This document shows, piece by piece, positions 1,638 to 63,252 of a stretch of 64,000 nucleotides of DNA. The notes beneath the pieces are model-generated. The model was given only the letters and a program-made list of their open reading frames with translations, did not search any database and was not told where the DNA came from. Numbering within the stretch: position 1 is the stretch's first letter; each line of letters opens with the position of its first letter. The stretch comes from Lentisphaera profundi. GTDB taxonomy: Bacteria > Verrucomicrobiota > Lentisphaeria > Lentisphaerales > Lentisphaeraceae. The position numbers and the translations under genes were made by a program. The stretch spans positions 1,364,001-1,428,000 of the forward strand of contig NZ_CP117811.1 in the NCBI RefSeq assembly GCF_028728065.1, given 5' to 3'.

Positions 1638-2978
1638 TCAAAAAAGTGCTTCGTTTGCATAGCCAAAACTAGGTGCATTAATTCCCGCCGCTTGCAGCAT
1701 GGCAAGATGTGCAGAACTCAATGGTTTACGTTCAGCAATATTCGACTTGAGGTGAAGGCCTGTTTTATGTTTGCCTCCACCTTTACCGGCAATGATACAG
1801 GGGAGATCATAGCCTTTGTGGTTTTGTCCATCACCGATACAGGCAGTGAGCATTATTTGACTATTATCGAGGATGGATTTATCACCCTCTTTGATATTAC
1901 TTAAACGCTCAAGGATTTGTGCGTAGAGACCGACTTGATACTGGATGATTTTTGTAAAGGAATCGGTATGTTTGGCTGATGTGCCATAATGAGATGCACC
2001 ATGATGATGGTGAATTCCCGATTCAAGAAAACTATAGCTTTGTCTGGTGGCTTCCTGAGCAAACATATATGTAATGACATTGGTTCGTCGTGTTTGAAAG
2101 GCGAGGACGAAGAGGTCGCAATACATCTGCTGGAGTTCATCAAAGTAGTTTGTATTACGCCAGCTTTGTCCTAAGCCCATGGCAAAGTCTTCTTCGGGTT
2201 TTCTGTAATCTGCGGGAATAGTTTTGCTATAGCCTGAATCCTTATTCATTTTTTCCATTCGCTTCTCTAGTGTTCGAATGGAAGTAAAATATTGATCGAG
2301 CCGACTGCGGTCTTCGCGCCCAGCATATTTCACCAAGCGTTTTAAATCGGATCGAGTGAGATCCAAAACACTCTTCATTTGATTTTCACTAACTCGAGAA
2401 GCACTCGTACTTCCATAGAGTCTTTTAAATGCCATGTAGGGATCACGGTCTTGAACAATATATTCTTTCGAAGATTTCCAAGATATATACTTAAAGTATT
2501 CTGGGTGATCACCGACAGAATCAGGACTACGATTTGAGACGTTTGAGGTACTACTAAAGTGCATGGAGTCAATAAAACTATTGGCGCCGAGGTAGCGAGC
2601 GGCGAGTTGGTCGGCTGAAATTATGTCTTCGGAATTTTCGCTAAAACCAGCTTGTAGGGCAATCTCATCTCGTGAGCGGGTTCCATCTGTTAATAGGGAG
2701 GCGCAATTTTTATGACCACCACCTTTATTCCCTTGAAGCGCCAAACCTGAGTAAATAGAAAATTGACTGCGTAAATCTTTTAGGGGCTCTAAACACGTGG
2801 GAAGAGTGTAATCTTTGCCATCTTCTGTGGGCTTGAAACGATCCGGGATATAACCATTGGGCATGAATATCCAAGCGAGACGTTGATTATTTTTTTGCAT
2901 GACTGAGGCATTGAGCTCTAACCAAGGCAGAGTCATAAAAGCTCCACCAATTCCCTTTAATAATGTACGTCTATTCAT
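1638..2978 (-). CDS. DUF1552 family secreted protein
   Basis: 446 aa. It starts MNRRTLLKGIGGAF, a twin-arginine-like export signal typical of DUF1552 proteins. The core has the family look: RLAWIFMPNGYIPDRF near residue 35, a GGGHKNCASLLTDG segment near 85-100, and SGIHHHHGASHYG near 320. The function of DUF1552 is unknown. In Planctomycetes, Verrucomicrobia and Lentisphaerae these genes sit next to DUF1592/DUF1588/DUF1585 cytochrome-like proteins. Here it starts 8 bp downstream of that partner on the same strand, so the two should be co-transcribed from the promoter motif near 6250. Confidence 0.9.
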   Translation of the reverse strand: MNRRTLLKGIGGAFMTLPWLELNASVMQKNNQRLAWIFMPNGYIPDRFKPTEDGKDYTLPTCLEPLKDLRSQFSIYSGLALQGNKGGGHKNCASLLTDGTRSRDEIALQAGFSENSEDIISADQLAARYLGANSFIDSMHFSSTSNVSNRSPDSVGDHPEYFKYISWKSSKEYIVQDRDPYMAFKRLYGSTSASRVSENQMKSVLDLTRSDLKRLVKYAGREDRSRLDQYFTSIRTLEKRMEKMNKDSGYSKTIPADYRKPEEDFAMGLGQSWRNTNYFDELQQMYCDLFVLAFQTRRTNVITYMFAQEATRQSYSFLESGIHHHHGASHYGTSAKHTDSFTKIIQYQVGLYAQILERLSNIKEGDKSILDNSQIMLTACIGDGQNHKGYDLPCIIAGKGGGKHKTGLHLKSNIAERKPLSSAHLAMLQAAGINAPSFGYANEALF

Positions 2979-2986
2979 CTTCTCTC

Positions 2987-5900
2987 CTAGAATTTATATT
3001 GGAATTGATCACTGAGAATTATGGTGGCCACAATAGCGGAAAAGCGGTTGTCGTTATTGCGCATATTGCTATGACATTTATTCACTAGATAAAAATCATA
3101 GTGATTGAGCTCGCGGTTCATAGCGTAAGAAAGGAATGCGGAAGAAACTTTGCGATAAAAGTGATCGCGATTTTTAACTAAGTAACGGCGCAGTTGTTGA
3201 GGTCCGCGAATTTCTTTGCCATTATTGAGAGTGGCCATATTATCGACATTATCCCTCCATCGACCCATATGATCATAATTTTCCAATGGGAAGCCAAGTG
3301 GATCGATCAGCGAATGACAGCCTTTGCAATTGGGGTTTCTACGATGTTCAACTAAGACTTCGCGCAAACTCATATCTTTTGTTTCACTAGCAGAGGGTAG
3401 TATGCCCGCATCGGGAGGCGGAGGCGGTGTGGGTGTTCCTAAAATAGAGCTTAAGATGAAGTTGCCTCTTAAAATAGGATTCGTACGCTCTCCCGCAGAA
3501 CTAAGAGCCATGAAACCGGCCATGCCGATAATTCCTCCACGTTGATCAGTTTCGAGTGATCGTTTACGGAATACATAGCCCACATCTGTTTTTATATTAT
3601 AGAATTCAGCCATGTGATCATTTAGGAAGGTGAAGTCAGAACTCAGTAAATGTTGCAGGTTGAGGTCATTCTTTATGATGTAATCAAAGTAAGTAATGAT
3701 CTCTTTATACATATCCTCGTAAATCGGATCCTCTTCAGCCATGTCCCGCAAGGCATCCACTTCTAACCACTTATTCAAAAAGGCCTTGAGCATGGCTTGT
3801 GAGCGCTTGTCTCGGAGCATGCTTTGTACTTGCTCTATGAGAACTTGACGATCAAATATTTGTCCAGAAGAAGCCAAATCATAGAGCTCTTGATCGGGCG
3901 GCTGATTCCAAATGAGGTAGGAGAGCCGATTAGCGAGTTCAAAAGCAGAGAGTTTTTTGAACTCGGGTGTTTTTTTCTCAAAGCGAAAAAGGAATTCCGT
4001 CCGCAAAAAACTCTGAGTCATCATCAATTGTACGGCATTATCACTGCCATGCTGATGCGTGAGTTGGAGGAATGAGTTGAGAAATGAGTTTATCTCAGTC
4101 TCTTCAGCTGGGCGTCGCAGCAGTTTCTTTAAAAAGGCTTCACTTTGTCGTTTCATTAAGGCTGTAAGTTGTGGGCTGATTTTTTTATATTCAATAAAGT
4201 GAATAAGTTCTTCCACTTGGGTGTATTTTTCTCTGTTTTCTACACTCAGATTTTCTTGGATTAATTCATTTGGAAGAACAAAGATAGCAGCAATAAGTTG
4301 ATTAAATTTTTGATACTGCTTACGCTTTAGATTAGAGAGTTTTCTATTAGTGTCGAGATCTTCATTCGCCGCTTTCCAATGTTTGATGAAGCTATCAATC
4401 GCGGGCTCTATTAAATCATTTGGGTATTTTTTTATGGAGAGTTTTTTCCAATCTTTTAATCCTTTAGAAATAGTCGTATCAAGGCCATGTTTTTTAAGGA
4501 AAGTCGCTGTCTGTTGAACAAAAATTGCTGATATTTTATGCTTTGAAGAAATTTCATTTAGTTTGGCGCTTTGCTTTTTTCCATCGCGTAAAAACTCAGC
4601 TAAAGCACTCATTGAGCGTCGCAGGGCTTCTTGCTCTTTAAAATCCTTGAAGTAGTGATTGAGTAAGTACTTATATTGAATGGCTTTAAGTCGTTTAATA
4701 AGAATATTTTTAGGCTGTTTGAGAAGAGGTTTTTCATTGAAATAAAACCCCTGTTCTAAGTCGTAAGCAGCATAACGTGAAATGAATTCTGCGGAGGCTA
4801 AAAACTTCTCAAAAGAAACAATTGAAATATCATTGGTATTATCGATTTGGAATTTACTCGAGAAATCGAACTCCAAACCCGTGACAGCTTTTACGGTAGT
4901 ATTATAATTTTTTGAATTGAGACGCTGAATCTTTTGCTTTTTACTGATTTTTCTCGAACGAGTTTCAATTGTAAAAAGAAGCTTCTGCACGAGCTCGGCA
5001 AATTCTTCTCTTTCTCGAGGGGCGATTTCGCCATCTTCGGGTGGAGGCATTTCAGAAGCGCGAATAAAGGATAAAGATTGTTTGAAAATATTATATTTTT
5101 TATAGTAATCTTCAGCGCTCTTGAGGGTTTCAAAATTTAATTCCTCCTCATGAAGGTCGTTACCATGGCATTCATAACAATGAGTTTTTAGTTTCCCAAT
5201 TAAAGTCTTGATCTCTACTTTATTGAGTAAGGCAGAATCGGGAACTTTCATTTCATCAATAATGACAAGTGCCGCGGGTTCTAGTATGCCCTCATCTTTT
5301 ATGAATACGATGGCTTCCGTGATGGGCACTAGCACTGGCTTTGTGGCAACTAAAATGGGTGTTTCACTTTTGGGCGCAGCAATACTTTTACTCGGTTGCT
5401 TTTTATTCATTGCGGGATCAAACATTTTTCTTATCTCAGCGGATTTATAAATCAAGCCAGCTAAGAGTATAGAGCAAACGAGTGCTAAGGGCACTAAGTT
5501 TGCTTTTTTCTGTTTTTTCGGGCGTGGAATTTTGTTGACAGTAGATTTAGAAACTGAGAGGCCTTTACTCTTCTTTCTAGGGAGCTGTTTTTTTGATACT
5601 TTTCTTGCTTTAGGAGCTTTTTGCTTAGGAACTTCTTTGGGAAGATCCAAGCTGGGTTTTACTTCTTGCTTAGAACGAGTAATACCTTGTTTTAGTGATG
5701 CGTTGAAGGAACTACGTATGATTGTTAAAGGTTTCTGATCAGTAATGTCCTTATTACATCCAGGACAAATGATTTGATCAAATTGATCGGGGTTTTCTAA
5801 AATTAATTTTTGCTGGCATGAGTCGCAACAAAGTGTGAGTTCAACTGCTGACACAGAAGAGTTATCTTGAGTATTCTGATCTGCGGAGATAGTAGGGACA

Positions 5901-6196
5901 AGTGGCTTTGAATTAACGGGATCAGCGCTCAGCTCTGAATCAGAGTTTGTTTTGTCTGGAGATTTAGGGCCATTAGTATTTGGGCTAGGGTGGTAGCTTT
6001 CCGGACTTGTATCAATTATAGCTTTCGGGATGCTTGATTGTAAATAGCTCGTTAAATCTTGCTCACATCCGGGGCAGAAAAGTTGTTCAAAATCTTGAGG
6101 GTTTTCCAAGACTAAATGTTGATTACATTGCTCACAATGAATATTGATTTCTGGTGTATGCTTATCTAAATGTGGAGGAGTTTTTGGTGAATCCAT
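2987..6196 (-). CDS. DUF1592/DUF1588/DUF1585 planctomycete-type cytochrome with N-terminal zinc ribbons
   Basis: 1069 aa. Two CxxC...CxxC ribbons lie near residues 20-45 and 120-145; they are tandem copies (LVLENPQDFEQLFCPGC and LILENPDQFDQIICPGC). A Lys/Pro-rich linker is followed by a single membrane segment near 232-249. A CYECHGN c-type heme motif sits near residue 342, after which come DUF1587, DUF1595, DUF1592 (FELANRLSYLIWNQPPD), DUF1588 with a second CxxCH (NCKGCHSLIDPLGFPLENYD near 957) and a C-terminal DUF1585-like segment. The C-terminal domain order is standard for the family; the ribbon-plus-membrane N-terminus is less usual and would place the ribbons in the cytoplasm and the heme part outside. 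It is the first gene of an operon with DUF1552. Confidence 0.9.
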   Translation of the reverse strand: MDSPKTPPHLDKHTPEINIHCEQCNQHLVLENPQDFEQLFCPGCEQDLTSYLQSSIPKAIIDTSPESYHPSPNTNGPKSPDKTNSDSELSADPVNSKPLVPTISADQNTQDNSSVSAVELTLCCDSCQQKLILENPDQFDQIICPGCNKDITDQKPLTIIRSSFNASLKQGITRSKQEVKPSLDLPKEVPKQKAPKARKVSKKQLPRKKSKGLSVSKSTVNKIPRPKKQKKANLVPLALVCSILLAGLIYKSAEIRKMFDPAMNKKQPSKSIAAPKSETPILVATKPVLVPITEAIVFIKDEGILEPAALVIIDEMKVPDSALLNKVEIKTLIGKLKTHCYECHGNDLHEEELNFETLKSAEDYYKKYNIFKQSLSFIRASEMPPPEDGEIAPREREEFAELVQKLLFTIETRSRKISKKQKIQRLNSKNYNTTVKAVTGLEFDFSSKFQIDNTNDISIVSFEKFLASAEFISRYAAYDLEQGFYFNEKPLLKQPKNILIKRLKAIQYKYLLNHYFKDFKEQEALRRSMSALAEFLRDGKKQSAKLNEISSKHKISAIFVQQTATFLKKHGLDTTISKGLKDWKKLSIKKYPNDLIEPAIDSFIKHWKAANEDLDTNRKLSNLKRKQYQKFNQLIAAIFVLPNELIQENLSVENREKYTQVEELIHFIEYKKISPQLTALMKRQSEAFLKKLLRRPAEETEINSFLNSFLQLTHQHGSDNAVQLMMTQSFLRTEFLFRFEKKTPEFKKLSAFELANRLSYLIWNQPPDQELYDLASSGQIFDRQVLIEQVQSMLRDKRSQAMLKAFLNKWLEVDALRDMAEEDPIYEDMYKEIITYFDYIIKNDLNLQHLLSSDFTFLNDHMAEFYNIKTDVGYVFRKRSLETDQRGGIIGMAGFMALSSAGERTNPILRGNFILSSILGTPTPPPPPDAGILPSASETKDMSLREVLVEHRRNPNCKGCHSLIDPLGFPLENYDHMGRWRDNVDNMATLNNGKEIRGPQQLRRYLVKNRDHFYRKVSSAFLSYAMNRELNHYDFYLVNKCHSNMRNNDNRFSAIVATIILSDQFQYKF

Positions 6197-6233
6197 TACA
6201 TCAATCCGAAATTATTATAAGAAGTACTCTTAT

Positions 6234-6265
6234 GGGAGTACCGCTTCTTTGCATGCAATGTGACA
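6234..6265 (-). promoter_or_regulatory. Regulon promoter motif, copy 1 (DUF1592/DUF1552 operon)
   Basis: On the minus strand TGTCAC (6265-6260), a 17-bp spacer, then GGTACTCCC (6242-6234). It lies about 46 bp upstream of the DUF1592-type start and matches eleven other copies in this window. Confidence 0.75.
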
Positions 6266-6286: not shown

Positions 6287-7093
6287 TTAATCTCCCGAGT
6301 AGCGTGTCCACATACCTAAAGGTTCGTTAAAAGTCCCGTTACCAATAGTGGACATGTGATACAGAGTATTGACATGGCCATCGGTAAATAGGTAGTTATA
6401 GCGAAAGGCTCGGTGTAAATTTTTAATGTAGAGATCTTGCTCATCTGGAGCATCAATCACGTCTCGATTATTACAACGACCGACTGCGTTGAGATCATAG
6501 GGTTCTTCCGTGAGTGCAATGGTATTGGCATGATCTTCCACATCAGTTATTTTTACAGAACCTCCTGAATGATCACCATAAGCTTCATTTTCGACACCCA
6601 CAACCCAAGCAATGCCATTGTAAAAACGACTCCCTCCGACACGTCCACGATTAAGGCTATATGTTCTACGATAGCGTACAGTGCTGCGTGATGGGATATC
6701 ATCATTGGGGCAAAGAAAGGGGTTGTTTGCTAAGCTATAATCTGCCGTAGGTATTTCATTCTTACTTTTGTCGATATCCGCCCAAGTAAAACCCATGTAG
6801 TCCGAGATGAGGTCATCATAAGCATATTGACTAGCACTGCGATCATCTGCAAAGGGATAATAGCCCTTATTATCTTCAGTATACATCTGCAGAGCGAGAC
6901 CTATTTGTTTCTCTGAATTTGTACATACAATCGTACGAGCTTTCTTTCTCGCTTTACTCAATGCTGGTAACAAAAGCGAAGCTAGGATTGCTATCACTGC
7001 AATTACTACGAGTAGTTCTATCAATGTAAATTTCTTGATCGTAATCTCCTGTTTCTTGGGTATACCAGAGATTTCTTTTATCTGTGACACCAA
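6287..7093 (-). CDS. Type II secretion-like pseudopilin (prepilin N-terminus, H-X9-DG C-terminus)
   Basis: About 268 aa. A short basic leader is followed by [20 protein letters not shown], the prepilin peptidase site (before Phe; Glu at mature position 5) and the hydrophobic spine. The globular part has CPND and the C-terminal FTDGHVNTL typical of DUF1559-like pseudopilins of the Planctomycetes/Lentisphaerae. There is no ATG near the 5' end: the frame opens TTG GTG (7093, 7090) about 6-9 nt after an AAAAGG ribosome-binding site, so a non-AUG start is likely. It ends 90 bp upstream of the DUF1592 gene with that gene's promoter motif in between, so the two are probably separate units. Confidence 0.85.
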
Positions 7094-7470: not shown

Positions 7471-7556
7471 TTATCTCATTCATCATCAATAGCAGTTATT
7501 GATAATTAAGTTCTAAAGTGTTAATTGGAGCATCTCCAATTAATACTTTTGCTATT

Positions 7557-9524
7557 ATGTCAATAAACGAAAACCCCAATATTTTACGCGGCTTTTTTAA
7601 AGACGCTATAGCTGAGCCCAAGCAAAGTGGTTTAGAGTTGATTGAAGAACTCAAAGAATTACAGAATGAAGGCAAATTCACCGCAGGCACCAAGCTCGAT
7701 GAAGGTGGAATGAAAGATATCTTTGTTAAAGAAGATAAAATGACAGCGCGGCCCATTGCCATGGCCATTCCTCGTCAAGAAAAACGAGATATCGAATCTT
7801 TGAGTGCCTTCATTCGCGAAGCTCGCATTACCGCTCAGGTAGCTCACCCCAGTGTATTGCCGATTCACGAAATTGGTGTGGGAGAGGATGATATCCCTTT
7901 CTATACGATGAAATATATTCGTGGAGATAATTTTGGAGTCATACTAAAAAAACTTAAAGACGGCGATCCACAAGCTCGAAAAGACTATCCCTTGAGCCGA
8001 TTATTAGCGATATTTAATCGTATATGTGAGGCTATTTCTTTCGCACATTCAAAAGGAATCGTACACCTAGATTTAAAACCGGAGAATGTGCTTATTAATC
8101 CCTATGGGGTGGTTCAGGTTTGCGATTGGGGATTGGCGCAATATATCGATGCAATGGATGAAAGTATTGAAGGTGTGCTCAAAGGCACACCAGGCTATTT
8201 ATCACCGGAACAAATAAATGGAGAGCAACCTAACGTTCAAAGTGATGTCTTTGCCCTAGGAGTCATACTCTATCAAATTTTAACTTATGAATTACCCTTT
8301 GCAGGTCCTACAGTGGATATCATGCTGAAGAATACTTTACTTGGTCAAGCAAGGTCCATACGTCAAGCCAATATAAGTTTTCGTCATCCATCCGCACTTA
8401 GAGCCATTTGCCGAAAAGCAATGGCAAATGAAAAACGAAATCGCTACGAATCAGTACAATTAATGGTCGAGGATTTAGAGGCTTTTCAAGTGTATCGTCC
8501 CACGCTAGCTGAAAGTCCTAGTTTTTTTGGTAAATCTTTACTTTTGCTCAAGAGGCATAAAACAATTTCGATACTCTCAATGATTTCAATAACGCTTATT
8601 TTTTGCATCAGTGCAGTCTTTACCGTAAAAGTTAAAAAAGAAGAAATGCAGCGCATAGAAATATCTAAAAAGGCCGTCACTCATTACAATGATTTAGCAA
8701 ATGAAGCCTTTAAAGAATTTGATTTTGAAGAGGCCAAAAAGAATGCCTTACAATCCTTGACTTATAAGGATAACTTCGCGGCCAATGTATTGATGGCTCA
8801 TTATTATTTAGTTCATGGTGACTTAGCGGAGGCGAGGAAATACGCACTCGAATGTCAGGATGATACGAACCGCTACCTTCAGATCTGTGATGCCTTATTG
8901 CTAAAGACAGAACTTAAAGGCGATGATCTAATCTTAAAAATGCTAGAGGTGGTTTTGAAGTATCATCATCCAGGGATAGCAATAGATATTTGCTATCGTC
9001 GCAATGGTATGAGGCAAGATATTCAAAGTCATTTACCTTTTATCCACCGTTTATTAGAGGTTTTAGCTCCTGAACTTGACGATTATGAATTGAGTTTAAA
9101 AGAGAATGAAATCATTTTTAAAGCGGATGGGCATTTTACTCGACTGGCACTCTTTGCAAATTTACCTATACAAGAATTAGTTTTGAATAATAGCTATGTC
9201 AGAGATTTGAGTGCCCTTAGAAACTTAAAAGAGATTAACCGCCTAGAACTGAATAATACCATGGTCAGTGAACTAGAACCCTTGCGAGGAATGAATATTG
9301 AGTACTTAGATATATCCAATACCATGGTTCATGATCTCAAGGTTTTGGAGGATATTCATTTGGAAAACTTAAGAATGAAGGGTTTAAAAGTTTTAGCCCT
9401 CAGTGTCTTAACCACCAAAGAAGAACTTAAATCACTTACTTTGGATGAAGCTAAATTTACCACACCCCATGACAAGAGACATATCGCCACCTTAAAGAAA
9501 AAAGGCGTATTAATCAATGAATAA
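7557..9524 (+). CDS. Ser/Thr protein kinase, WNK-like lysine arrangement, membrane-anchored with TPR-like and LRR-like tail
   Basis: 655 aa from ATG 7557. An upstream GTG (7518) is also in frame, but the ATG start makes residue numbers identical to the paralogue at 49060-51021. Kinase domain about 45-320: P-loop EGGMK (Lys53 where GGMG-type loops have Gly), RPIAMAIP at the VAIK site (Ala70 in place of Lys), helix C Glu88, catalytic loop HLDLKPEN (Asp172, Asn177), DWG metal site (Asp190) and a GTPGYLSPEQ activation end. A membrane helix follows near 340-358, then a helical TPR-like part (FKEFDFEEAKKNALQSL) and about four leucine-rich units (near 535-630). It overlaps the GNAT gene by 8 bp. Catalytic loop and metal site are intact, so it is probably active. 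Confidence 0.9.
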   Translation: MSINENPNILRGFFKDAIAEPKQSGLELIEELKELQNEGKFTAGTKLDEGGMKDIFVKEDKMTARPIAMAIPRQEKRDIESLSAFIREARITAQVAHPSVLPIHEIGVGEDDIPFYTMKYIRGDNFGVILKKLKDGDPQARKDYPLSRLLAIFNRICEAISFAHSKGIVHLDLKPENVLINPYGVVQVCDWGLAQYIDAMDESIEGVLKGTPGYLSPEQINGEQPNVQSDVFALGVILYQILTYELPFAGPTVDIMLKNTLLGQARSIRQANISFRHPSALRAICRKAMANEKRNRYESVQLMVEDLEAFQVYRPTLAESPSFFGKSLLLLKRHKTISILSMISITLIFCISAVFTVKVKKEEMQRIEISKKAVTHYNDLANEAFKEFDFEEAKKNALQSLTYKDNFAANVLMAHYYLVHGDLAEARKYALECQDDTNRYLQICDALLLKTELKGDDLILKMLEVVLKYHHPGIAIDICYRRNGMRQDIQSHLPFIHRLLEVLAPELDDYELSLKENEIIFKADGHFTRLALFANLPIQELVLNNSYVRDLSALRNLKEINRLELNNTMVSELEPLRGMNIEYLDISNTMVHDLKVLEDIHLENLRMKGLKVLALSVLTTKEELKSLTLDEAKFTTPHDKRHIATLKKKGVLINE

Positions 9525-13629: not shown

Positions 13630-14985
13630 TTAGTGTGATTTTTTTGTTAGTTCGGGAATGAGAAAGTTGTCTTCGCTTAAGTCACACCATTCTTTTAGCA
13701 ATTTTCGATGTCGAAGAATTTCTAGTAGATGGGCTTTTGATTTGATCAGGTTATTCATTTCCCCTGGGTCTTTTTTGAGATCAAAGAACTGCTCTTTTTT
13801 ATTGCCGACGTCATAGGCGACGTATTTGTAGCGATCTGTTCTGAGCATGCGGCCTTTGATATTATAGGATACATCATAATTGGCAAATTCTGTTTCACTG
13901 ACGACATACTCACGCCCTAGCTTTTTATCATACATAAGTGGTTTGAGCGATTGGCCGATTAAATCATTTGGTGGCTTGATGCCCGCGTAATCACAGAGGG
14001 TGGGGATAAGGTCGAGGCCTGTAGAAATAAGCGCCTCTTTATCAATGTTTTTTTTATTTGAAGAAGCAGGATCTACAATAATAAAAGGGACTCGTACGGA
14101 TTCTTCGTAGAGTACGGATTTTTGATTCCATTGATGACAGGCACAACCATCACCATGGTCAGAGAGAAAAATGACCACGGTATTTTTGGCAAATTTAGAT
14201 TGAGCAATGAATTCACTGAGTTTGCCAATTTCAGTATCAACTTTTTCAATCAGGCGATGATAAGCCCAGACATATTGACGCCAGCGTTTTTCTTCCCAGT
14301 CCTGAGTAGGATAAGTTCTCCAATGAAGGCTTTTTACATAGCGAATGCAATCGGGCTCATCTTCACTGATAGTAAAGTTGTGAGGTAGGGCGGGGAGCTC
14401 AGCTAGATTTTCTGGGGGACTGCCAATCTCTCCTTCGGGAAGTTTATCACCCCGAGCCCATTGGCAGATATCGTGGGGATTGCGATATGAAGCAAGGACA
14501 AAGAAAGGCTTAGGACTTTCTTGCTGAATAAACTCAATTGCGGTGTCAGCAAGTAGGTGATCAACTGCACGGGCTTTGGTGTGACGATAGAGATCAAAGC
14601 CACGGCCGGCACCACCTATGAGGTGAGTTTTTCCCATGTATGCGGTGCGATAACCCGCTTGGCTCATGATTTCACCCATGACCGGGAAGTCATATTCGTA
14701 ATCAAGCTTATCACGATTGACTTGAGCGTCAATTTGATGAGGGATTTTCCCCGTCATCATACTTGTACGTGACGGTACACATATCGGCTGTGTGCAATAG
14801 GCCTTGTCAAAGTATGTACCTCGAGTAGATAATTTATCTAGATTGGGAGTATTGAGGCCTTGGACTCCCATTGAACCCAGAACACCGCCATGATGCTGAT
14901 CGTTCATGATTATAAGAATATTGGGCTTAGTATCTGCGAGGATACTTAAAAGGGGAAGAAGTAAAAAGATTGAGAATCGCAACAT
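13630..14985 (-). CDS. Secreted type I sulfatase (CVPSR)
   Basis: 451 aa. Signal peptide (MLRFSIFLLLPLLSILA). Alkaline-phosphatase fold with the metal-binding start NILIIMNDQHHGG, the TPNLDKLSTRG segment, the formylglycine site C69-V-P-S-R73 followed by TSMMTGKIP, and FLSDHGDGCACHQW later. This is the standard C-x-P-S-R motif, matured to formylglycine by FGE or an anaerobic sulfatase-maturating enzyme; neither is in this window. Head gene of a two-gene unit with a PL8 lyase, which suggests action on a sulfated glycosaminoglycan-like polymer. Preceded by a promoter motif at 15017-15048. Confidence 0.93.
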   Translation of the reverse strand: MLRFSIFLLLPLLSILADTKPNILIIMNDQHHGGVLGSMGVQGLNTPNLDKLSTRGTYFDKAYCTQPICVPSRTSMMTGKIPHQIDAQVNRDKLDYEYDFPVMGEIMSQAGYRTAYMGKTHLIGGAGRGFDLYRHTKARAVDHLLADTAIEFIQQESPKPFFVLASYRNPHDICQWARGDKLPEGEIGSPPENLAELPALPHNFTISEDEPDCIRYVKSLHWRTYPTQDWEEKRWRQYVWAYHRLIEKVDTEIGKLSEFIAQSKFAKNTVVIFLSDHGDGCACHQWNQKSVLYEESVRVPFIIVDPASSNKKNIDKEALISTGLDLIPTLCDYAGIKPPNDLIGQSLKPLMYDKKLGREYVVSETEFANYDVSYNIKGRMLRTDRYKYVAYDVGNKKEQFFDLKKDPGEMNNLIKSKAHLLEILRHRKLLKEWCDLSEDNFLIPELTKKSH

Positions 14986-15016
14986 GAAGTATTCCTAATT
15001 AAATTGAGCTTTATAA

Positions 15017-15048
15017 GGATATACCAGATGAATTGGCTAGATGTGACA
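15017..15048 (-). promoter_or_regulatory. Regulon promoter motif, copy 2 (sulfatase/PL8 unit)
   Basis: Minus strand TGTCAC (15048-15043), 17-bp spacer, GGTATATCC (15025-15017), about 40 bp before the sulfatase ATG. Divergent from the plus-strand copy starting at 15105. Confidence 0.75.
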
Positions 15049-15104
15049 AAGGCAAGTATTTATTTTGAAATCAATAAAAATGATTTATTTAATTGATGGA
15101 GCCT

Positions 15105-15136
15105 TGTCACATTTCAAGTATTTCTACGGTATTCCC
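15105..15136 (+). promoter_or_regulatory. Regulon promoter motif, copy 3 (small protein/DUF1961/sulfatase operon)
   Basis: TGTCAC, 17-bp spacer, GGTATTCCC; the GG is 37 bp before the ATG at 15165. Confidence 0.75.
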
Positions 15137-15164
15137 ACATAAGTGAATTTAACTAGGACTTAAA

Positions 15165-18860: not shown

Positions 18861-18895
18861 CCTCTCAAGCTTAATCTTGAGGGGATTTTTTTTTT
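18861..18895 (+). terminator. Rho-independent terminator
   Basis: CCTCTCAAG, loop CTTAAT, CTTGAGGGG, then A and ten T. It would end the 15165-18659 operon, or read-through from it, just before the next promoter motif. Confidence 0.8.
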
Positions 18896-18899
18896 GTGC

Positions 18900-18931
18900 T
18901 GTCACATTAGTTCAATATCAGCGGTATTCCC
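18900..18931 (+). promoter_or_regulatory. Regulon promoter motif, copy 4 (DUF4962/heparinase gene)
   Basis: TGTCAC, 17-bp spacer, GGTATTCCC; the GG is 34 bp before the ATG at 18957. The motif directly abuts the upstream terminator. Confidence 0.75.
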
Positions 18932-18956
18932 TATAAATAATAATGAGGATTCATCT

Positions 18957-21633: not shown

Positions 21634-21852
21634 TAGCGACGACTACGAACAATCACAAGTGAGATTTTCGGGGATTTACAAAGATTATATCTTTGCAGTA
21701 ATTAAACAAGATATCAATGACCTAGATGACTAAATATTTATAAAAATTAATTCAGCGTGGATTCGAGTATATATTGAGTGATAAGAGAGTTAGATTAAGC
21801 TTGATCTTATTTGAGCGTAGTCTATATTTTTTTATCTTTCAAGGAGAATATG

Positions 21853-22458
21853 ATGTCTGATTGGATCACCAACGTAACCCTTTTGCAGCGTGTTAAAAAT
21901 CAACATGACGATCAGTCATGGGAAGAGTTTAATGAATATTATAGGCCCTATATCTATATGATTACGAAGGGCTTAAATATGCAGCACGATGATGCGAAAG
22001 AAATTACTCAGTTGATCATGATCAAAATTTGGAAGAATCTTCCTAAGTTCGATTACGATCCTGATAAAGGCTATTTTCGGGGATGGTTACGTACGGTTAC
22101 AGTCAATATGGTCAGAAACTATATTGCCTCAAAGGCCTTCAAACAGGAGTCGCTTGAAAGTATTCAAGAATCAAATGAATCCCTACCTGATTTAGATCGA
22201 GATTTTTCAAAATCTGAAATAGAGCGAATTGCTGACGAGGAATGGGAAGTTTATATCTGTCGCCTGGCATGGGATAATGTAAAAGAAAACTTTGAGGAAA
22301 ATGCCCAAGAAGTTTATCGATTATTATCCGAGGGTAAGGAATGCGATGTCATTGGTGAGCAATTGGGAATAAAACGCAATACAGTTTATGTCTATCGCAA
22401 GAGGATTCAAGAAAAACTCTACCGTGAAATTCGTCGTTTAAATCACGAGTTGGGCTAA
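21853..22458 (+). CDS. ECF-type RNA polymerase sigma factor
   Basis: 201 aa from ATG 21853 (AAGGAG at 21841-21846; this start matches the paralogue MTDWLTN). Sigma region 2 about 20-95: SWEEFNEYYRPYIYMI, DAKEITQLIMIKIWKNLPKFDYDP, GYFRGWLRTVTVNMVRNYI. An acidic linker, then region 4 about 145-190 with VIGEQLGIKRNTVYVYRKRIQEKLY as the helix-turn-helix. No anti-sigma gene is adjacent. A close paralogue lies at 56145-56747. Candidate reader of the TGTCA-N17-GGTA motif, by co-occurrence only. Its own upstream region has no copy of the motif. Confidence 0.92.
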   Translation: MSDWITNVTLLQRVKNQHDDQSWEEFNEYYRPYIYMITKGLNMQHDDAKEITQLIMIKIWKNLPKFDYDPDKGYFRGWLRTVTVNMVRNYIASKAFKQESLESIQESNESLPDLDRDFSKSEIERIADEEWEVYICRLAWDNVKENFEENAQEVYRLLSEGKECDVIGEQLGIKRNTVYVYRKRIQEKLYREIRRLNHELG

Positions 22459-23540: not shown

Positions 23541-23750
23541 AACTTAAGGGGTTTTTATACGTGCTTCTACCTTTTTTAGTATGGACCAGAGGACTCATCG
23601 GCCACCGGAGGTATTTATACTGGGGCTCCGCCCCAAGTTTGACTAAATGAGGGACGAGTCCCTCACACTCCCACCAAGGACTTGCCAGCCCTTGACCCGG
23701 CGAATGGTGCGGAGCCCCATATATTTTTATCCGCCGGAGGTTTTTATAGG
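23541..23750. repeat. Dispersed GC-rich intergenic repeat, copy R1
   Basis: Contains TTTATACGTGC, CTTTTTTAGTA and CCGGAGGTATTTATA (23605-23619), which align closely with copy R2 at 60530-60620. Its right half, GACTTGCCAGCC...GA, aligns with copy R3 near 29980. A second CCGGAGGTTTTTATAG lies near 23730. With the MITE it fills the 608-bp gap before the PL8 gene; I see no gene there. Confidence 0.6.
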
Positions 23751-26563: not shown

Positions 26564-29500
26564 TTATTTTGAAACTTGTCGTTTATCCGCAATGGGACTT
26601 AATGATAATTCTCTACTTAGACCATGTTTAACTCTGAGAGTAATTAAAGTGTTCGCTCCTTTAAGTTCAACTTTTTTGATGTCAGCATGTGCAGCAACTT
26701 GCCATAAACCACGGACTTCAAAATGGACAAAATGTTCTGCTGCAGGAGTATTGGTGATATCCAAGGGCATGTGACTCATGTTATGATTCCATTTTGCTAA
26801 ACGTAAGTCAGGATCAGTTAAACTAATCAAGAGCTCATCACCACTTTCTTGCGCCATAAAAAGCACCGGTGTGTCTGAACGTAATAAGGGACCTGCCACA
26901 GTCTGGTTCGCTTGAAACAGAGCATAAGCAGTGGTGTTTTGTCCAAATTTCAAAATGTGAGCTATGGCATCTTTTTGGAGGATTTTATAATTAGGTTTCT
27001 GGGCAATTTTATTTGCTTGTTTAGAATTACTTTTGACTAAGATCGAATACTCATAATTTGCATTGTTGGGTGCCTTGCCATGGTCGATCCAAGATTTCAC
27101 TGCGGGGTGTTCTTGTACCGCTGCGAAGGATTTTGAACGAAAGTGTTCTTTAGCAACAGCTTGCTGTTGACCCAAGTTAGTTTTCACTGTGTATTGCTGA
27201 GGGACGATATAAAAATTCTCTTGAGTATCCCTGAGGATGGCACCGTGGCCCTTTGAATTTTCTTTTATGATTTTCCCATTCAAAGAAGCACTTACAGGGA
27301 CCTCACTACTTAATACATTTTGAAATAGGGTAGTGATGGTATTGTACCTTGAATCTGAGCTATTAATTCCACTGCCTAAGCAGATGATTTGATTATCAAA
27401 AAAGAAATAGGATTTTTTAGCACTGAAGCCTTTTTCGAAAAGAGCTTCATCGCCATCAGCGGGAACCGTATCAAGCAAATCAAGTGAAAAGATACCATTA
27501 GCTCCTAGTGTGGTAGCTCCGCAGAAAGTTTGCTCTGTATAGTTGCGGTGCTTACCCTCAGCATAAATAGGATGAGCTTGAACAAAGTAAGCGGCTTTCT
27601 CAATAGGGAGTTCTTTGGTGGTGGCACCAGGCATGTAGGACCAATTAAATTTATTGAGATCCATGGCAGAAGCCTTGAGGCTGAGAAGACCTTTTTTATC
27701 TGTTCCAGTGAAAAGTTTTAGTGCTCCGAAAGAAGCATAACGTCCGAAAGGATTAGCGCCTTTATGACCTGATTCGAAATCCCAAACATACTTACTAAAA
27801 CCCTTGACGGAAGCGGCGAAATTACTGCGTTTATGATTTGCGAAGCCCGCATACGGGAAGGCGTAGAATCCATTGGCTCCAATACGATTTGATTCTTTTT
27901 TCTCAATTGAATCCGCAAGTATTTCCATGCGCTCGAGAGTACCAAAGGTACCATAGTAGGTTAAACTAGGGAAGTGGTAGCTATCGCTATCATCAAATTC
28001 GGCCTTGTGATAAATCTTCGCAAAAGTATTAGCCATTTCTTGATCACAGATTTCGTCGCCATTTAAAGCCATGAAAGCAAAGGCCTGGACCATCATCCGA
28101 CTTAAACCATTATTAGTGTAGGGGAAGCGGCCACAGATCCCTGGGTGAAGCTCAAAGTCAGCGGCAAAGTTGATTTGAGCTTTTAAGGCTTTCCTTACTT
28201 GCTTCTGAGAAACTCTAGAGAGTTCGTATGAAGTTCCTTTTAAAAGATGATTAAACAAGGCAAAACTTGTCAGCGCTTGAACACCATAACTATTTTGATA
28301 TGCCCCTCGGTGGTGAAAGATACTGCCATCGGGTTTAATCGTGTCAATATAACCAGGCGCATCCATGGTAGCCCACTCGACATACTCTTTGAGAGCGATC
28401 ATTTTACGATGTTTTTGCTGAGTGTTTTCGAGTAGCAATACGGCAATGAGTTTGGGGATAAGTCCACCACGAATAAGGTCGGAGTTTTCCCCTTGGCTTT
28501 TATTCCAGCCACTGAGTTTGCCGAAGCGCGTGTGCCATTCTAATGTTTTTTGTTTTTCATCGAGAGTTTGCTGCTCAGCGAGAACATCCCTCATCAGAAA
28601 AACACTATTAGCATAAGCATTAAGACGAATGATATGGTCAGTTGTTCCTAGAGAAGAACCATAAGAAAAACCTTGGTCGCTATAGTAGTCGAAGAGGTCA
28701 ATTAAATCTTGTTTTTTCTTAGCATTTGGTTCTAGAGCATAATCCATTGCCATGGGAAAAAATATTTCGTGGCCGAGTTCTTGAAAAGTTTTGCGTTTTT
28801 CGGCACCTTGTTCATCACGGCTACTGAAAAGACTAAGTCCACTTATGGCTCCATCATGACGTCGAATATTTAATTGCTTAAACAGTGTCTTCGATTTACG
28901 AATCATAGAAGATAGTTTTCTATTAAGTAAAGCTGTATTAGCACCAGTGTTTTTCCCGAAATGATTGCCCTTGATTAAAAATTCGAGATTGGCTTCGATC
29001 TGAGCTAAATTTTGCACTTGGGATGGTGTCAACTGATGTTTCTCGGGACCAAATTTTGATAAGTTATTCCAGTGACTTAGGATTTCGTACGAATCTGTAC
29101 GATCGAGTGTTTTATTATTAGAATACTGTAGATCTGAATGACGCTTACGTGAAATGAAAGTGAGGAACTGTAGCATATCTAGATATACACGATCACCCGT
29201 CATGTCGGCCGAAGGGGTGATTTTTATGGCCTTCATTAGATCCGGACCACTATAATTTTCCACTTTGGCATCTTCTTCAAAGTGAACCCAAAAGGCGCGC
29301 CAACCCGTGAAATTTTGTTTCATTGAAAAACGATATTTAGGATTGTCATTGAGAGAACTTTTATTTGCGGCCACAGCAAAATGTAATTCTCCAGTGGGAT
29401 TGGGACTTTCGCGATAAAGCCAAAGCTTGATTCCGCCATGACGTGCGGCTTTAAAAAAACTGGGCTCAAAGTTTTCTGGCTGACCACCAGGCCATAATTT

Positions 29501-29758: not shown

Positions 29759-29807
29759 GAAAACTCCTTGGGAAGATATTTATTTCTTAGTTCGCAGTGA
29801 CTTAAGA

Positions 29808-29839
29808 GGGAGTACCGAAGAATAAAGTGGGATGTGACA
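29808..29839 (-). promoter_or_regulatory. Regulon promoter motif, copy 5 (PL8 lyase)
   Basis: Minus strand TGTCAC (29839-29834), 17-bp spacer, GGTACTCCC (29816-29808), about 58 bp before the start at 29758. Confidence 0.75.
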
Positions 29840-29867
29840 GCAGGGGGCAAATTCTTTTGTTGAATTT

Positions 29868-30030
29868 TTGCGAAGCTAGTCCGCTCGCGGAGGTATTTAT
29901 AGATTTTAATATGTAGGGACTCCGCGCCAAACCCCATTAGGGGCTTCGCCACGAGGGAGCTCTGCCCCTCGAGCACCCCGCAAAGACTTGCCAGCCTTTG
30001 ATCCGACGATAAGGGGCTTCGCCCAGCTCA
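29868..30030. repeat. Dispersed GC-rich intergenic repeat, copy R3
   Basis: TTGCGAA...AGTCCGC..GCGGAGGTATTTATAG..TTTTAATAT.TAGGGACTCCGC aligns with copy R4 at 56041-56130; the right half GACTTGCCAGCC aligns with R1. Together with the promoter motif it accounts for most of the 323-bp gap between 29759 and 30081; nothing else is seen there. Confidence 0.6.
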
Positions 30031-33025: not shown

Positions 33026-33043
33026 GGGGCTCTCCGGTTTTTA

Positions 33044-33075
33044 GGTATTACCAGAGAAAAAGTATTGATGTGACA
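33044..33075 (-). promoter_or_regulatory. Regulon promoter motif, copy 6 (cytoplasmic sulfatase/DUF3604 unit)
   Basis: Minus strand TGTCAC (33075-33070), 17-bp spacer, GGTAATACC (33052-33044), 27 bp before the sulfatase ATG. Confidence 0.75.
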
Positions 33076-33167
33076 GTGGCGAATGAAATATATTTGTGTA
33101 AATGAACTTTGGGATATTAATTATTTTATATTGAGATGCATACAGTTTTAAAGATTTTTTTATCATT

Positions 33168-33199
33168 TGTCATGAATAAGGTTTTTCGCCGGTACTACC
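33168..33199 (+). promoter_or_regulatory. Regulon promoter motif, copy 7 (pseudopilin)
   Basis: TGTCAT, 17-bp spacer, GGTACTACC; the GG is 39 bp before the pseudopilin ATG. Divergent from copy 6. Confidence 0.72.
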
Positions 33200-33229
33200 T
33201 ATTGATTGATAAATAAAAGGATTTAACAA

Positions 33230-34871: not shown

Positions 34872-34906
34872 TGGTATTCCCTTATTTATTTTATAGTTGG
34901 AGACTA

Positions 34907-34938
34907 GGGAGTACCGGGGAACTTATGAAAACATGACA
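34907..34938 (-). promoter_or_regulatory. Regulon promoter motif, copy 8 (small secreted protein 2)
   Basis: Minus strand TGTCAT (34938-34933), 17-bp spacer, GGTACTCCC (34915-34907), 44 bp before the ATG. Confidence 0.75.
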
Positions 34939-35038
34939 GTGAGAGGCTATTTAATGAATTTTTGATCAATCTAAAATTCTACTTATCCGTCCGTCCGAGT
35001 ACAGTCACCAGAGGACATATTATTTGGTGATTATCGTA

Positions 35039-49059: not shown

Positions 49060-51021
49060 CTATTTAATGATATTCATTTGTTTTAATTCTTTAATGGCTC
49101 TCAAGTCATGGGAGGTATGATACAGATCTTCATCAATTTTGAGTTCTTTTAAGCTAGGGATTTGTTGAAGAAGTTTGAGGTCGATGACTTTAATTCCTAT
49201 GAATTCCAAAGATTCAAGTTCGCAATTCAGTAGTGGTTTTATCGAGCTCACAGTTGTGTAAGAAAAACTTAAATGTTTGATCTTTAAATCAGCTAGAGGA
49301 GAAAGGTCATTGACCATAGTCTTATTAATTTCTAAACGATTGAGACTTTTAAGAGAACTCAATGGCTCCAAAGTTCTGACGTAGCTATTATTGACAATGA
49401 TATTTTCCATGGGTAAGTCCACAAAGGGACTCAAACGACTTAAGCCTTCACCACTAGTAAAAGAAAGTTTTTCATTGTCTAAATGTAAATCATAATCATT
49501 GACTTCTGGGTTAGCCGCTTTAATGATTTCTTCGAGTAAAGGAAGATAAGTCTTCAGATTTTTGCGCTTTTTATTTCTATCCTGTATGACAAACATGCTC
49601 ATGCCGGGGTAATGCAAGGTATTTAAGTTTTTAATCAGTTCGAGTAAAAAACTATCGGTATATTTGTTTTTAAAATGCTTCATATTATTCTTAAGTGTAG
49701 TAAATCGTCCGGCATTATCAATAGAAAGTAAGCCGTACTTCTCGGCCTCTTCAAGATCTCGGTGAACCACAAGGATTTGAGCTTTAATCCAGTTGGCTTC
49801 AGCGCTATTTTTGTATTTGAGAGAGGTATTAATATTTTTGAGTGCTTCCTGAAAATTAAAATCAGATAAGTTGTATTTAGCAAGCTCTGTGTAGTGGAGA
49901 TAGGTCTTTTCGGCGACTAATTTTCTTTTGAATTCTTCTTCTTTAACTTTGACTCTATAAAAGGAACTGATGGCCATAATAATCATGAGTGCAATCATCG
50001 TTAAAATAGAAAGAGTTTTATGACGTTTGAGTACAAGTAAAGATTTTTGTAAAGGACCTGGTTTTTGTGCTTGAGTGGGGAAATTATTCTGATAGGCCTC
50101 TAAATCTAAGAGCAGTTCACTCACACTAACGTAACGCTTTTCTTTTTCTAAATTCAAACATTTTTGACAAATGAGTTCTAAAACCTCGGGCAATTCATTC
50201 TTTGGGCGGGCTATTTTCATAGCAACAGTAATAGCACTTAAAGTTTGGCTAAGGACTTCCTTAACTGTATGACCACTAAAAGGAGCTTCGTAGGTCATAA
50301 TAGCATAAAGAATTGCTCCTAAGGCAAAAATATCACTTCTCGTATCTAGTTCTACACCTAAGATTTGTTCAGGAGCAAGATAGCCTGGTGTACCACTTAG
50401 TTTACCTTCTAATTCTTCGTAAGTTAGATTGATATTTCGTGCTAAACCCCAATCGCAAACTTGGACTTCTCCATAGGAACTCACGAGGATGTTATCAGGT
50501 TTTAAGTCTAAATGAATAAAGTTTTTGGAATGTGAAAAATCCATAGCTTCACAGATTTTAATAAAGATATTTAATAGTCGGTTAAGAGAATATTTTTGGA
50601 GGTATATTTCATTCTCATTGTAGAGTTTTTTTAAGATGGAACCTAAACTTTCACCCTGAATATACTTCATTGTATAATAAGGTATGCCTTTGTCATCAAG
50701 TGCAATTTCATGAATGGGAACAATATTTGGGTGTTCGAGCTGAGCTATGATTCGTGCTTCGTTTAAAAATAGTTCAAGAGATTCTTTGTCTTGCTTTGCT
50801 GCTTTTGGACGAGCAATGACCACATCACGTTCAGCAATCTGATCTTGACTGATATGAATGGATTTCATACCCCCCTCAGCTAAATGACGTGACTGAGAAT
50901 AACGACCCGTTTCTTGTAATTCTGCCAATTCTTTGAACAAGTCATCCCTCACCTTATCCGGTTCAGCTAGAGCCTCTTGGAAAAATAATGATTTAGATGA
51001 TGGTGTGTCTTTGTCCGTCAT
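49060..51021 (-). CDS. Ser/Thr protein kinase paralogue, WNK-like lysine arrangement, LRR-like tail
   Basis: 653 aa. Same plan and residue numbers as the kinase at 7557-9524: P-loop EGGMK with Lys53, RDVVIARP at the VAIK site with Ala70 instead of Lys, helix C Glu88, HLDLKPDN (Asp172, Asn177), DWG (Asp190), GTPGYLAPEQ. A membrane segment lies near 333-352 (HKTLSILTMIALMIIMAISS), then a helical TPR-like region (FNFQEALKNINTSLKYKN) and leucine-rich units about 525-625 (VDLPMENIIVNNSYVRTLEPL, LNRLEINKTMVNDLSPL). The LRR-like part would be on the other side of the membrane from the kinase. Monocistronic; a TGTCAT occurs upstream but without the GGTA half of the regulon motif. Confidence 0.9.
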   Translation of the reverse strand: MTDKDTPSSKSLFFQEALAEPDKVRDDLFKELAELQETGRYSQSRHLAEGGMKSIHISQDQIAERDVVIARPKAAKQDKESLELFLNEARIIAQLEHPNIVPIHEIALDDKGIPYYTMKYIQGESLGSILKKLYNENEIYLQKYSLNRLLNIFIKICEAMDFSHSKNFIHLDLKPDNILVSSYGEVQVCDWGLARNINLTYEELEGKLSGTPGYLAPEQILGVELDTRSDIFALGAILYAIMTYEAPFSGHTVKEVLSQTLSAITVAMKIARPKNELPEVLELICQKCLNLEKEKRYVSVSELLLDLEAYQNNFPTQAQKPGPLQKSLLVLKRHKTLSILTMIALMIIMAISSFYRVKVKEEEFKRKLVAEKTYLHYTELAKYNLSDFNFQEALKNINTSLKYKNSAEANWIKAQILVVHRDLEEAEKYGLLSIDNAGRFTTLKNNMKHFKNKYTDSFLLELIKNLNTLHYPGMSMFVIQDRNKKRKNLKTYLPLLEEIIKAANPEVNDYDLHLDNEKLSFTSGEGLSRLSPFVDLPMENIIVNNSYVRTLEPLSSLKSLNRLEINKTMVNDLSPLADLKIKHLSFSYTTVSSIKPLLNCELESLEFIGIKVIDLKLLQQIPSLKELKIDEDLYHTSHDLRAIKELKQMNIIK

Positions 51022-51133
51022 GAAGTAAGCCGTTTTTCGGTAAATTGATCGAGCAAATAAAAGTCTTTGGTCTAATTACAGTTCATGACAAAGCGAAATA
51101 GTTCAAGAATCATTAGTGAAATAATTTAGCATT

Positions 51134-51165
51134 TGTCACAAAGTTAATACTTCACCGGTAATTCC
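51134..51165 (+). promoter_or_regulatory. Regulon promoter motif, copy 9 (heparinase/esterase operon)
   Basis: TGTCAC, 17-bp spacer, GGTAATTCC; the GG is 37 bp before the ATG at 51194. Confidence 0.75.
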
Positions 51166-51193
51166 TATTAAATCAAAATAGAAAGGTGAGTTT

Positions 51194-56144: not shown

Positions 56145-56747
56145 TTAGCCGAGTTCACGATTGAGGCGGCGGATTTCTTTGTAAAGTTTTTCTTGGATGC
56201 GTTTGCGATAGATATAAACAGTATTGCACTTAATACCGATGTTTTCGGCAATAGTTTCACACTTGGTACCAGTGCTGAGTTGAGCGTAAACTTCTTGGAC
56301 ATTGTCGTTAAAATCAGCTTTTACATTATTCCAGGCTAAGTCACAGATATAATGCTCCCATTCACGATCGGCAATCGCTTCGATTTCGGCATCAGTTACT
56401 TTATTATTAAAGCCTTTGCCTTCTTCCACTTCCTCCAAACCTTCGATAGATTCATGACTATAAGCTTTCTTAGCAATATAGTTCCGGACAGTATTGACTG
56501 TAACGGTACGCAACCAGCCGCGAAAATAACCCTTGTCGGGATCATAGTTGAATTCGGGGAGATGTTTCCAGATTTTAATAATAATCATTTGGGTAATTTC
56601 TAAGGCATCATGATGACGTATATTTAGACCTTTGGTGATCATATAAATATAAGGACGGTAATACTCATTGAACTCATCCCAGGAAGAATCATCATGAGTG
56701 TTTTTTACTCGCTGTAATAAAGTCGCATTAGTTAACCAATCAGTCAT
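56145..56747 (-). CDS. ECF-type RNA polymerase sigma factor, paralogue of 21853-22458
   Basis: 200 aa. MTDWLTNATLLQRVKN, SWDEFNEYYRPYIYMITKGLN, ALEITQMIIIKIWKHLPEFNYDP, GYFRGWLRTVTVNTVRNYIA (region 2), an acidic linker, then TIAENIGIKCNTVYIYRKRIQEKLYKEIRRLNRELG (region 4, start and end of the helix-turn-helix). More than half the residues match the other copy, most strongly in the DNA-binding helix (NTVY(V/I)YRKRIQEKLY), so both may recognise similar promoters. No anti-sigma gene beside it. Downstream of a heparinase gene on the same strand, 54 bp away. Confidence 0.92.
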   Translation of the reverse strand: MTDWLTNATLLQRVKNTHDDSSWDEFNEYYRPYIYMITKGLNIRHHDALEITQMIIIKIWKHLPEFNYDPDKGYFRGWLRTVTVNTVRNYIAKKAYSHESIEGLEEVEEGKGFNNKVTDAEIEAIADREWEHYICDLAWNNVKADFNDNVQEVYAQLSTGTKCETIAENIGIKCNTVYIYRKRIQEKLYKEIRRLNRELG

Positions 56748-58850: not shown

Positions 58851-58866
58851 GAAAACCTTTTTCTTT

Positions 58867-58898
58867 GGTAATACCAATCAAATACTTTAAACATGACA
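58867..58898 (-). promoter_or_regulatory. Regulon promoter motif, copy 10 (heparinase lipoprotein)
   Basis: Minus strand TGTCAT (58898-58893), 17-bp spacer, GGTATTACC (58875-58867), 25 bp before the ATG at 58850. It decides that start. Confidence 0.75.
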
Positions 58899-58924
58899 AA
58901 TGCTAGACCTTTTTATTAGGCAAG

Positions 58925-58956
58925 TGTCACAAGTATTGAAAATTCATGGTATCACC
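58925..58956 (+). promoter_or_regulatory. Regulon promoter motif, copy 11 (sulfatase)
   Basis: TGTCAC, 17-bp spacer, GGTATCACC; the GG is 31 bp before ATG 58979. The ATG at 58946 overlaps this motif and is therefore not the start. Confidence 0.75.
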
Positions 58957-58978
58957 TAAGAAAGGAAAATCTTATTTT

Positions 58979-63125: not shown

Positions 63126-63203
63126 ACGCAATTCCCTTAAAGAGTTAGTTTAAGCAGGTCAGGGCGGAAGTTCGCCCTGTTTTAGTCCCGCAAGTTTTCT
63201 CTT

Positions 63204-63235
63204 GGTATTACTGATGAAACTGAGCATAAATGACA
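63204..63235 (-). promoter_or_regulatory. Regulon promoter motif, copy 12 (heparinase)
   Basis: Minus strand TGTCAT (63235-63230), 17-bp spacer, AGTAATACC (63212-63204). The first G of GGTA is A, the only deviation among the twelve copies at that place. Confidence 0.65.
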
Positions 63236-63252
63236 AAAGTTATAGAGTTAAT

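Follow-up and report, generated by a model that had tools for sequence, protein, structure and literature searches.

Sulfatase genes are frequent neighbours of the planctomycete-specific cytochrome families PSCyt and PSD in some freshwater Verrucomicrobia, and the passages on these families in the study concerned state their function as unknown (He et al. 2017, PMC5615132). In Rhodopirellula baltica, an extracytoplasmic function (ECF) sigma factor has been proposed to regulate a planctomycete-type cytochrome gene (RB10049/RB10051, with RB10051 being PSD1/PSC2; PMC2754498), and in the EcfP/PknT and EcfK/PknS systems ECF factors are controlled by transmembrane Ser/Thr kinases (PMC8999054, PMC13147305). 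The DUF1592 and DUF1552 domains receive few mentions in the open-access literature, and no function has been assigned to them there. Here, we analysed a DUF1592-DUF1552 operon of Lentisphaera profundi located in a stretch of 64,000 nucleotides (bases 1364001-1428000 of contig 1 of the two-contig, 5.46-Mb genome), hereafter the window. The operon carries a promoter element common to local lyase and sulfatase genes, and we propose with moderate confidence that its products would constitute an ECF-controlled, inner-membrane-anchored periplasmic redox pair for sulfated-glycan catabolism, equipped with cytoplasmic docking or regulatory modules.

The pair shares its domains with the PSCyt1-3/PSD1-5 families, whose PSCyt3-type genes are described, in the passages that treat them, as usually lying beside a conserved unknown gene (PMC5615132). 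Unlike the proteins of that description, for which the same passages mention domains for carbohydrate binding and protein interaction (Big_2, WD40, F5/F8), several of those considered here bear FHA or zinc-ribbon/membrane-helix N-termini, and the promoter is shared with lyases. The R. baltica case likewise joins an ECF factor to a planctomycete-type cytochrome; RB10051, in contrast, belongs to the sister family DUF1549/DUF1553 and is treated in a stress context, with no promoter motif described in the relevant passages (PMC2754498).

The initial annotation of a DUF1592/DUF1552 pair at this position proved correct, as judged from Pfam matches and two CxxCH motifs. The operon comprises the following features:

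6234..6265, minus strand: promoter of the DUF1592-DUF1552 operon, TGTCA (6261-6265), 18-nt spacer, GGTACTCCC (6234-6242)
2987..6196, minus strand: DUF1592-type protein, 1069 amino acids, two haem motifs (Pfam)
6065..6136, minus strand: putative zinc ribbon 1, residues 21-44, CEQC..CPGC (CxxC-N16-CxxC)
5756..5827, minus strand: putative zinc ribbon 2, residues 124-147, CDSC..CPGC (CxxC-N16-CxxC)
5432..5506, minus strand: membrane helix, residues 231-255, with a basic segment in front (hydropathy and charge)
5165..5179, minus strand: haem motif CYECH, residues 340-344 (seen in the sequence, its columns being invariant across sets of 21 and 40 homologues)
3314..3328, minus strand: haem motif CKGCH, residues 957-961 (seen in the sequence, its columns being invariant across sets of 21 and 40 homologues)
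1638..2978, minus strand: DUF1552 protein, 446 amino acids, leader MNRRTLLKG resembling those of the twin-arginine translocation (Tat) pathway (Pfam and sequence)
1989..2003, minus strand: HxxSH motif (HGASH), residues 326-330 of the DUF1552 protein (H326 and H330 invariant in 42 homologues)

Comparison of upstream regions revealed a shared element of ECF type, TGTCA-N18-GGTANTNCC, whose copy ahead of the operon, TGTCACATTGCATGCAAAGAAGCGGTACTCCC at 6234-6265 on the minus strand, fits every fixed position and lies 38 nt from the DUF1592 ATG, so that the perfect promoter copy asserted initially was borne out. When the whole genome was scanned with the spacer set at exactly 18 nt, all nine matches fell within the window; with spacers of 14-18 nt there were ten, nine of them in the window and the tenth with a spacer of 17, while a reversed-pattern control gave four matches with spacers of 14-18 and none with exactly 18. 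A weight matrix was built from 13 window sites, and these source sites all score at least 24.6. Even when excluded from the matrix, the DUF1592 site reached 23.9; the best sites of 100 shuffled windows averaged 12.5, with a maximum of 24.6 reached once, and these windows combined held a single match of 19 or higher. The window sites precede PL8 and heparinase-type lyases, sulfatases and two pseudopilin genes:

7058..7089, minus strand: regulon promoter of the upstream pseudopilin gene
15013..15050, minus strand: site before sulfatase 13630-14985
15103..15140, plus strand: site before the 15503-18659 genes (DUF1961, CBM, sulfatase)
18898..18935, plus strand: site at the start of DUF4962/heparinase-type gene 18894-21590 (true start downstream)
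29804..29841, minus strand: site before PL8 lyase 26564-29758
33040..33077, minus strand: site before sulfatase 31577-33025
33166..33203, plus strand: site before pseudopilin 33230-33943
34903..34940, minus strand: site with no assigned gene of at least 150 amino acids directly downstream
51132..51169, plus strand: site before DUF4962/heparinase-type gene 51194-53641
58863..58900, minus strand: site at the listed start of heparinase II/III gene 56802-58877
58923..58960, plus strand: site at the listed start of sulfatase 58946-60520
63200..63237, minus strand: site before heparinase II/III gene 61110-63131

The identity of the promoter and its exclusivity to the window strongly support, at the sequence level, the membership in a polysaccharide regulon that had been claimed for the pair, and the predicted co-regulation of the operon with the local lyases, sulfatases and pseudopilins is well supported. 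We infer that the regulon would be a catabolic one of glycosaminoglycan type. In the 20-kb flanks on both sides, promoter variants precede symporter-like, pseudopilin, fucosidase-like and glucosamine-6-phosphate-deaminase-like genes, these products, pseudopilins excepted, having been named by eye from their translations. In a congeneric genome (G002; L128 9000-9671), an intact promoter stands before decayed remnants, glucosamine-6-phosphate-deaminase-like and hydroxyacid-dehydrogenase-like genes, in the gene order found beyond the window here, and this arrangement is the sole cross-species support for the motif. The same genome has a second promoter copy (L129 10227-10264). A hairpin overlapping the DUF1592 promoter lies outside the shared motif and was taken as incidental.

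The gene directly upstream belongs to the same regulon:

6287..7039, minus strand: pseudopilin (DUF1559-type) gene, start revised to ATC at 7039

It was listed as 6287-7093, an open reading frame that contains its own promoter, and AGGAG sits 6 nt before an in-frame ATC (window 7037-7060); a rare ATC (or ATT) start codon is therefore likely.

Candidate regulators are encoded among the regulon sites and beside the operon:

21811..22458, plus strand: ECF sigma factor, candidate regulator, 215 amino acids as listed, homologous part beginning 14 codons in
56145..56747, minus strand: ECF sigma factor, candidate regulator
7518..9524, plus strand: transmembrane Ser/Thr kinase, divergent neighbour of the operon, helix 348-373 (Pfam)
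49060..51021, minus strand: second transmembrane Ser/Thr kinase

The two ECF factors are 69% identical to each other, and a third paralogue (68% identity) is encoded 3 kb past the window end, so that three paralogues of 68-70% identity lie within 46 kb, interspersed with regulon sites. The next relative of the window ECF factor in the genome, which has 86 sigma-70 region 2 matches, shows 53% identity. Each of the three paralogues has a transmembrane Ser/Thr kinase in its neighbourhood, a likeness to EcfP/PknT and EcfK/PknS (group ECF43). Unlike in those systems, the window kinases lie ~5-12 kb from the ECF genes. Phosphorylation-activated factors of ECF43 type are marked by an adjacent kinase and by loss of the DAED motif; in the region of that motif, the sequence is DAKE in one window factor and DALE in the other. 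By analogy, kinase control may operate on an ECF factor at this locus. The flank past the window (L144 2763-18786) has its own ECF paralogue, kinase and pseudopilins, together with several sites reading CTGTATT instead of CGGTATT, a variant whose position beside a separate paralogue suggests diverged sigma-promoter pairs.

The DUF1552 gene starts 8 nt downstream of the DUF1592 gene on the same strand. The DUF1592-type protein has the domain order DUF1595-DUF1592-DUF1588-DUF1585, with the CKGCH motif within that part; PSD4/DUF1592 (105 bits), PSCyt3/DUF1588 (104 bits) and PSD2/DUF1585 (55 bits) all score above the Pfam cut-offs, and DUF1595 and PSCyt1 also match but below them. C339, C342, H343, M382, P383, C956, C959 and H960 (numbered without the first Met) are invariant in 21 DUF1592 homologues, so that the Met-Pro following the first CxxCH motif is as constant as both motifs. 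The two CxxCH motifs favour haem binding, which is predicted for this protein. A confident structural model of the DUF1592 core (predicted local distance difference test, pLDDT, 86.8) had no match among solved folds, and a sequence search of both families against solved structures yielded nothing significant.

The DUF1552 protein matches its Pfam family (PF07586) with 222.5 bits against a cut-off of 30, and its MNRRTLLKG start would, as expected, fit Tat export. The HXXSHH signature of the family reads HGASHY here, the last His of the family name being often replaced among homologues; of H-x-x-S-H, only the two outer His are invariant in the 42 homologues, in which D123 and D223 are also invariant and H387 nearly so. 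The nearest folds to its model (pLDDT 82) are sulfatases and other enzymes of the alkaline phosphatase (AlkP) superfamily (Foldseek probability 0.99, E 1.3e-3 and TM-score ~0.38 against sulfatases), and its C-terminal region aligns with the window sulfatases (hhalign E 2e-4, probability 47%). Unlike that superfamily, DUF1552 has no counterparts of the sulfatase DD metal pair, CxPSR or DHG in its conserved columns or blocks and presents HxxSH, D123, D223 and H387 instead. These comparisons weakly suggest a sulfatase/AlkP-like protein devoid of sulfatase catalytic residues.

The two ribbons of the DUF1592-type protein are an internal duplication, about half identical, and a long basic linker precedes the membrane helix. 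They had been described as tandem; the two duplicated CxxC-N16-CxxC units stand, although ~80 residues separate them. No Pfam ribbon model matched at E<=0.001, and the spacing of the paired CxxC fits a zinc ribbon. A strongly basic stretch of 40 residues leads into the helix in 17 of 17 proteins that carry a cytoplasmic module, which by the positive-inside rule indicates an N-in topology. A weaker hydrophobic stretch at residues 280-299, which as a second helix would place the cytochrome part in the cytoplasm, is missing from homologues and was taken not to be one. It is therefore strongly predicted that the ribbons face the cytoplasm and the cytochrome part the periplasm. This supports the initial annotation of helix-anchored ribbons inside the cell, and an N-terminal extension on a membrane helix occurs in 12 of the genome's 24 DUF1592 proteins. 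The haem-linked redox chemistry initially hypothesised for the cell surface would more probably be located at the inner membrane, where the N-terminal helix would hold the cytochrome part on the periplasmic side, away from the outer surface.

These 12 proteins combine an N-terminal extension, a membrane helix and a cytochrome part, the extensions being zinc-ribbon-like in seven, FHA in two and unassigned but helical-looking in three (L090 5728-8949 and 13405-16548, and L092 7745-10984, show helical-looking extensions of ~165-190 residues before the helix). A family sample of 59 proteins, which leaves out the three unassigned extensions, contains 13 with zinc ribbons, three with FHA and one with a ribbon plus a doubtful kinase-like region. 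On a quick tree with several long branches, the window DUF1592 protein among them, a minimum of seven changes separates plain signal peptides from cytoplasmic modules and a minimum of nine is needed among four states, with FHA modules in three separate places. In 486 kb of the genome, mainly around DUF1592 loci, all seven ribbon-plus-helix proteins are DUF1592 proteins; in a wider 80-locus set, a ribbon-helix start was found in two Planctomycetota proteins (L186, L195). Two near-identical ribbon-bearing DUF1592-DUF1552 pairs lying close to each other at L084 (5123-9477 and 11485-15839) represent a recent duplication. The sister family may share the device, since a ribbon-like unit likewise opens a DUF1549/DUF1553 protein of a relative (L132); at L132 816-5573 this N-terminus stands on a PSCyt1-DUF1549-DUF1553 protein, followed by DUF1501 and a pseudopilin, beside an FHA-bearing DUF1592-DUF1552 pair.

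The FHA matches exceed the Pfam cut-off both in two DUF1592 proteins of the genome (63.9 and 59 bits) and in relatives (58.5 and 65.8 bits in L088 and L132/L046). In all three FHA fusions, Ser replaces the phosphothreonine-contact Arg after the IG motif, giving IGS versus the IGR of most other FHA proteins of the genome. With this Arg missing, phosphothreonine signalling by the FHA forms was dropped, and docking is preferred. The kinase-like module in L131 (Pkinase E=0.009, below the cut-off; hhalign probability 4%; no HRD or DFG) was kept as weak.

The same modules admit two other readings. The alternatives considered here overlap in part, the first concerning the ribbons alone, and our confidences in them need not sum to one. 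The extensions could be mere inner-membrane anchors for the cytochrome, leaving the ribbons without a regulatory role. Unrelated modules do occupy the same place, and some close relatives carry a plain signal peptide instead; a single helix, however, would suffice to anchor the protein, every ribbon version retains the cysteines and the present protein has retained two ribbons, and we consider this reading possible but not probable.

The other reading is a transmembrane sensor, in which the periplasmic pair would detect a redox state or glycan product and signal through the helix to ribbons acting on the kinase/ECF circuit; a sensing part had initially been suggested for the N-terminus. Across the tree, signalling-type modules (ribbons, FHA and the doubtful kinase-like one) replace one another at a single position, two of the closest pairs lie next to ECF and Ser/Thr kinase genes, and a kinase is the divergent neighbour of the operon. 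With the FHA contact Arg lost, the kinase-like version weak and half of the genome's DUF1592 proteins devoid of a cytoplasmic module, the sensing role was not borne out; docking fits at least as well, and we regard a sensor as unlikely.

How far the glycan link reaches was assessed across the genome. Each of the 24 DUF1592 genes has a DUF1552 gene no more than 3.3 kb away, and two relatives have 54-57 DUF1592 matches. The promoter survey suggested with the initial annotation found no regulon promoter in the other 19 DUF1592 neighbourhoods, which together contain the remaining 23 genes and reach a best matrix score of 17.2; the polysaccharide link thus belongs to this locus and not to the DUF1592 family. 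DUF1592 loci did not cluster significantly with ECF genes, the exception being a distance of up to 20 kb (p=0.016, a single test out of six). Among named records, the nearest relatives of the DUF1592-type protein belong to Lentisphaeraceae. A search of genome contigs for its close relatives, for which the 40-sequence core profile was too diverse, gave none, and a plasmid search gave partial and distant matches only.

Several observations weigh against a redox pair serving glycan catabolism. Among the sulfatase matches listed, DUF1592 loci are not significantly near sulfatases (p ~0.11-0.16; within 10 kb, nine of 20 loci versus 6.2 expected, p=0.12), and the family is also present in many other settings. 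Neither an electron donor nor an acceptor was identified, and the AlkP likeness of DUF1552 is weak in both TM-score and profile probability. Elsewhere, no orthologue has both the DUF1592-type protein and the regulon promoter. Given the survey and the lack of significant sulfatase proximity, this genome gives no grounds for extending the hypothesis to the family, and the link at this locus is compatible with, though not proof of, the wider sulfatase neighbourhood of freshwater Verrucomicrobia (PMC5615132).

A pseudopilin gene, on the other hand, occurs within 5 kb of 11 of 20 DUF1592 loci versus 3.8 expected (p=0.0007). The pair might accordingly function in the cell envelope, or in surface display or export based on pseudopilins, and belong to the regulon because pseudopilins do: pseudopilins adjoin several of the closest pairs of related genomes (L131, L132, L133 and L135), and the upstream pseudopilin here has its own promoter copy. 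Against this stand the nine loci with no pseudopilin within 5 kb, the absence of any known physical link to the pair and the sheer number of pseudopilins in the genome (129 N-terminus matches, alongside at least 151 sulfatase matches), which make such a role rather improbable. It is very improbable that the operon escapes co-regulation and that its promoter copy reflects chance or decay: although a single genome offers no orthologous site for comparison and the left-out score falls slightly under the shuffled maximum, the site retains every fixed position and the exact spacer, lies 38 nt ahead of the start codon and scores far above the shuffled average.

For the periplasmic redox pair that we favour, a glycan signal would activate one of the local candidate ECF factors, possibly via a transmembrane Ser/Thr kinase encoded nearby, on the model of EcfP/PknT and EcfK/PknS. 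With the cytochrome part facing the periplasm, periplasmic DUF1552, with its putative AlkP-like fold, would bind a glycan-derived product or cofactor, and the haems would pass electrons to or from it; electron transfer on such a product, with DUF1552 as substrate or cofactor partner, is the more weakly founded element. The cytoplasmic ribbons would link the pair to a partner in the cytoplasm, serving for docking or regulation and not as a catalytic sensor.

Further features of the window include a 300-nt direct repeat, 95% identical, at 40895-41194 and 43453-43752, 2.6 kb apart; an intergenic repeat family, CGGAGGT(A/T)TTTATA, at 23570-23750, 29885-29928, 56052-56122 and 60559-60624; and a GH43 gene over two overlapping frames (46137-47200), possibly a frameshift or pseudogene.

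In a broader and speculative sense, the DUF1592 cytochromes may include a hitherto undescribed class of transmembrane receptors or regulated redox enzymes, built from a periplasmic two-haem part, one helix and swappable cytoplasmic modules, that would report on or respond to extracellular glycan breakdown. The swappable modules, present in half of the genome's DUF1592 proteins, point to partners at the inner membrane, and the promoter common to the pair and the lyases and sulfatases would provide an inducing condition for proteins that are strongly amplified in this bacterial family and have no assigned role.

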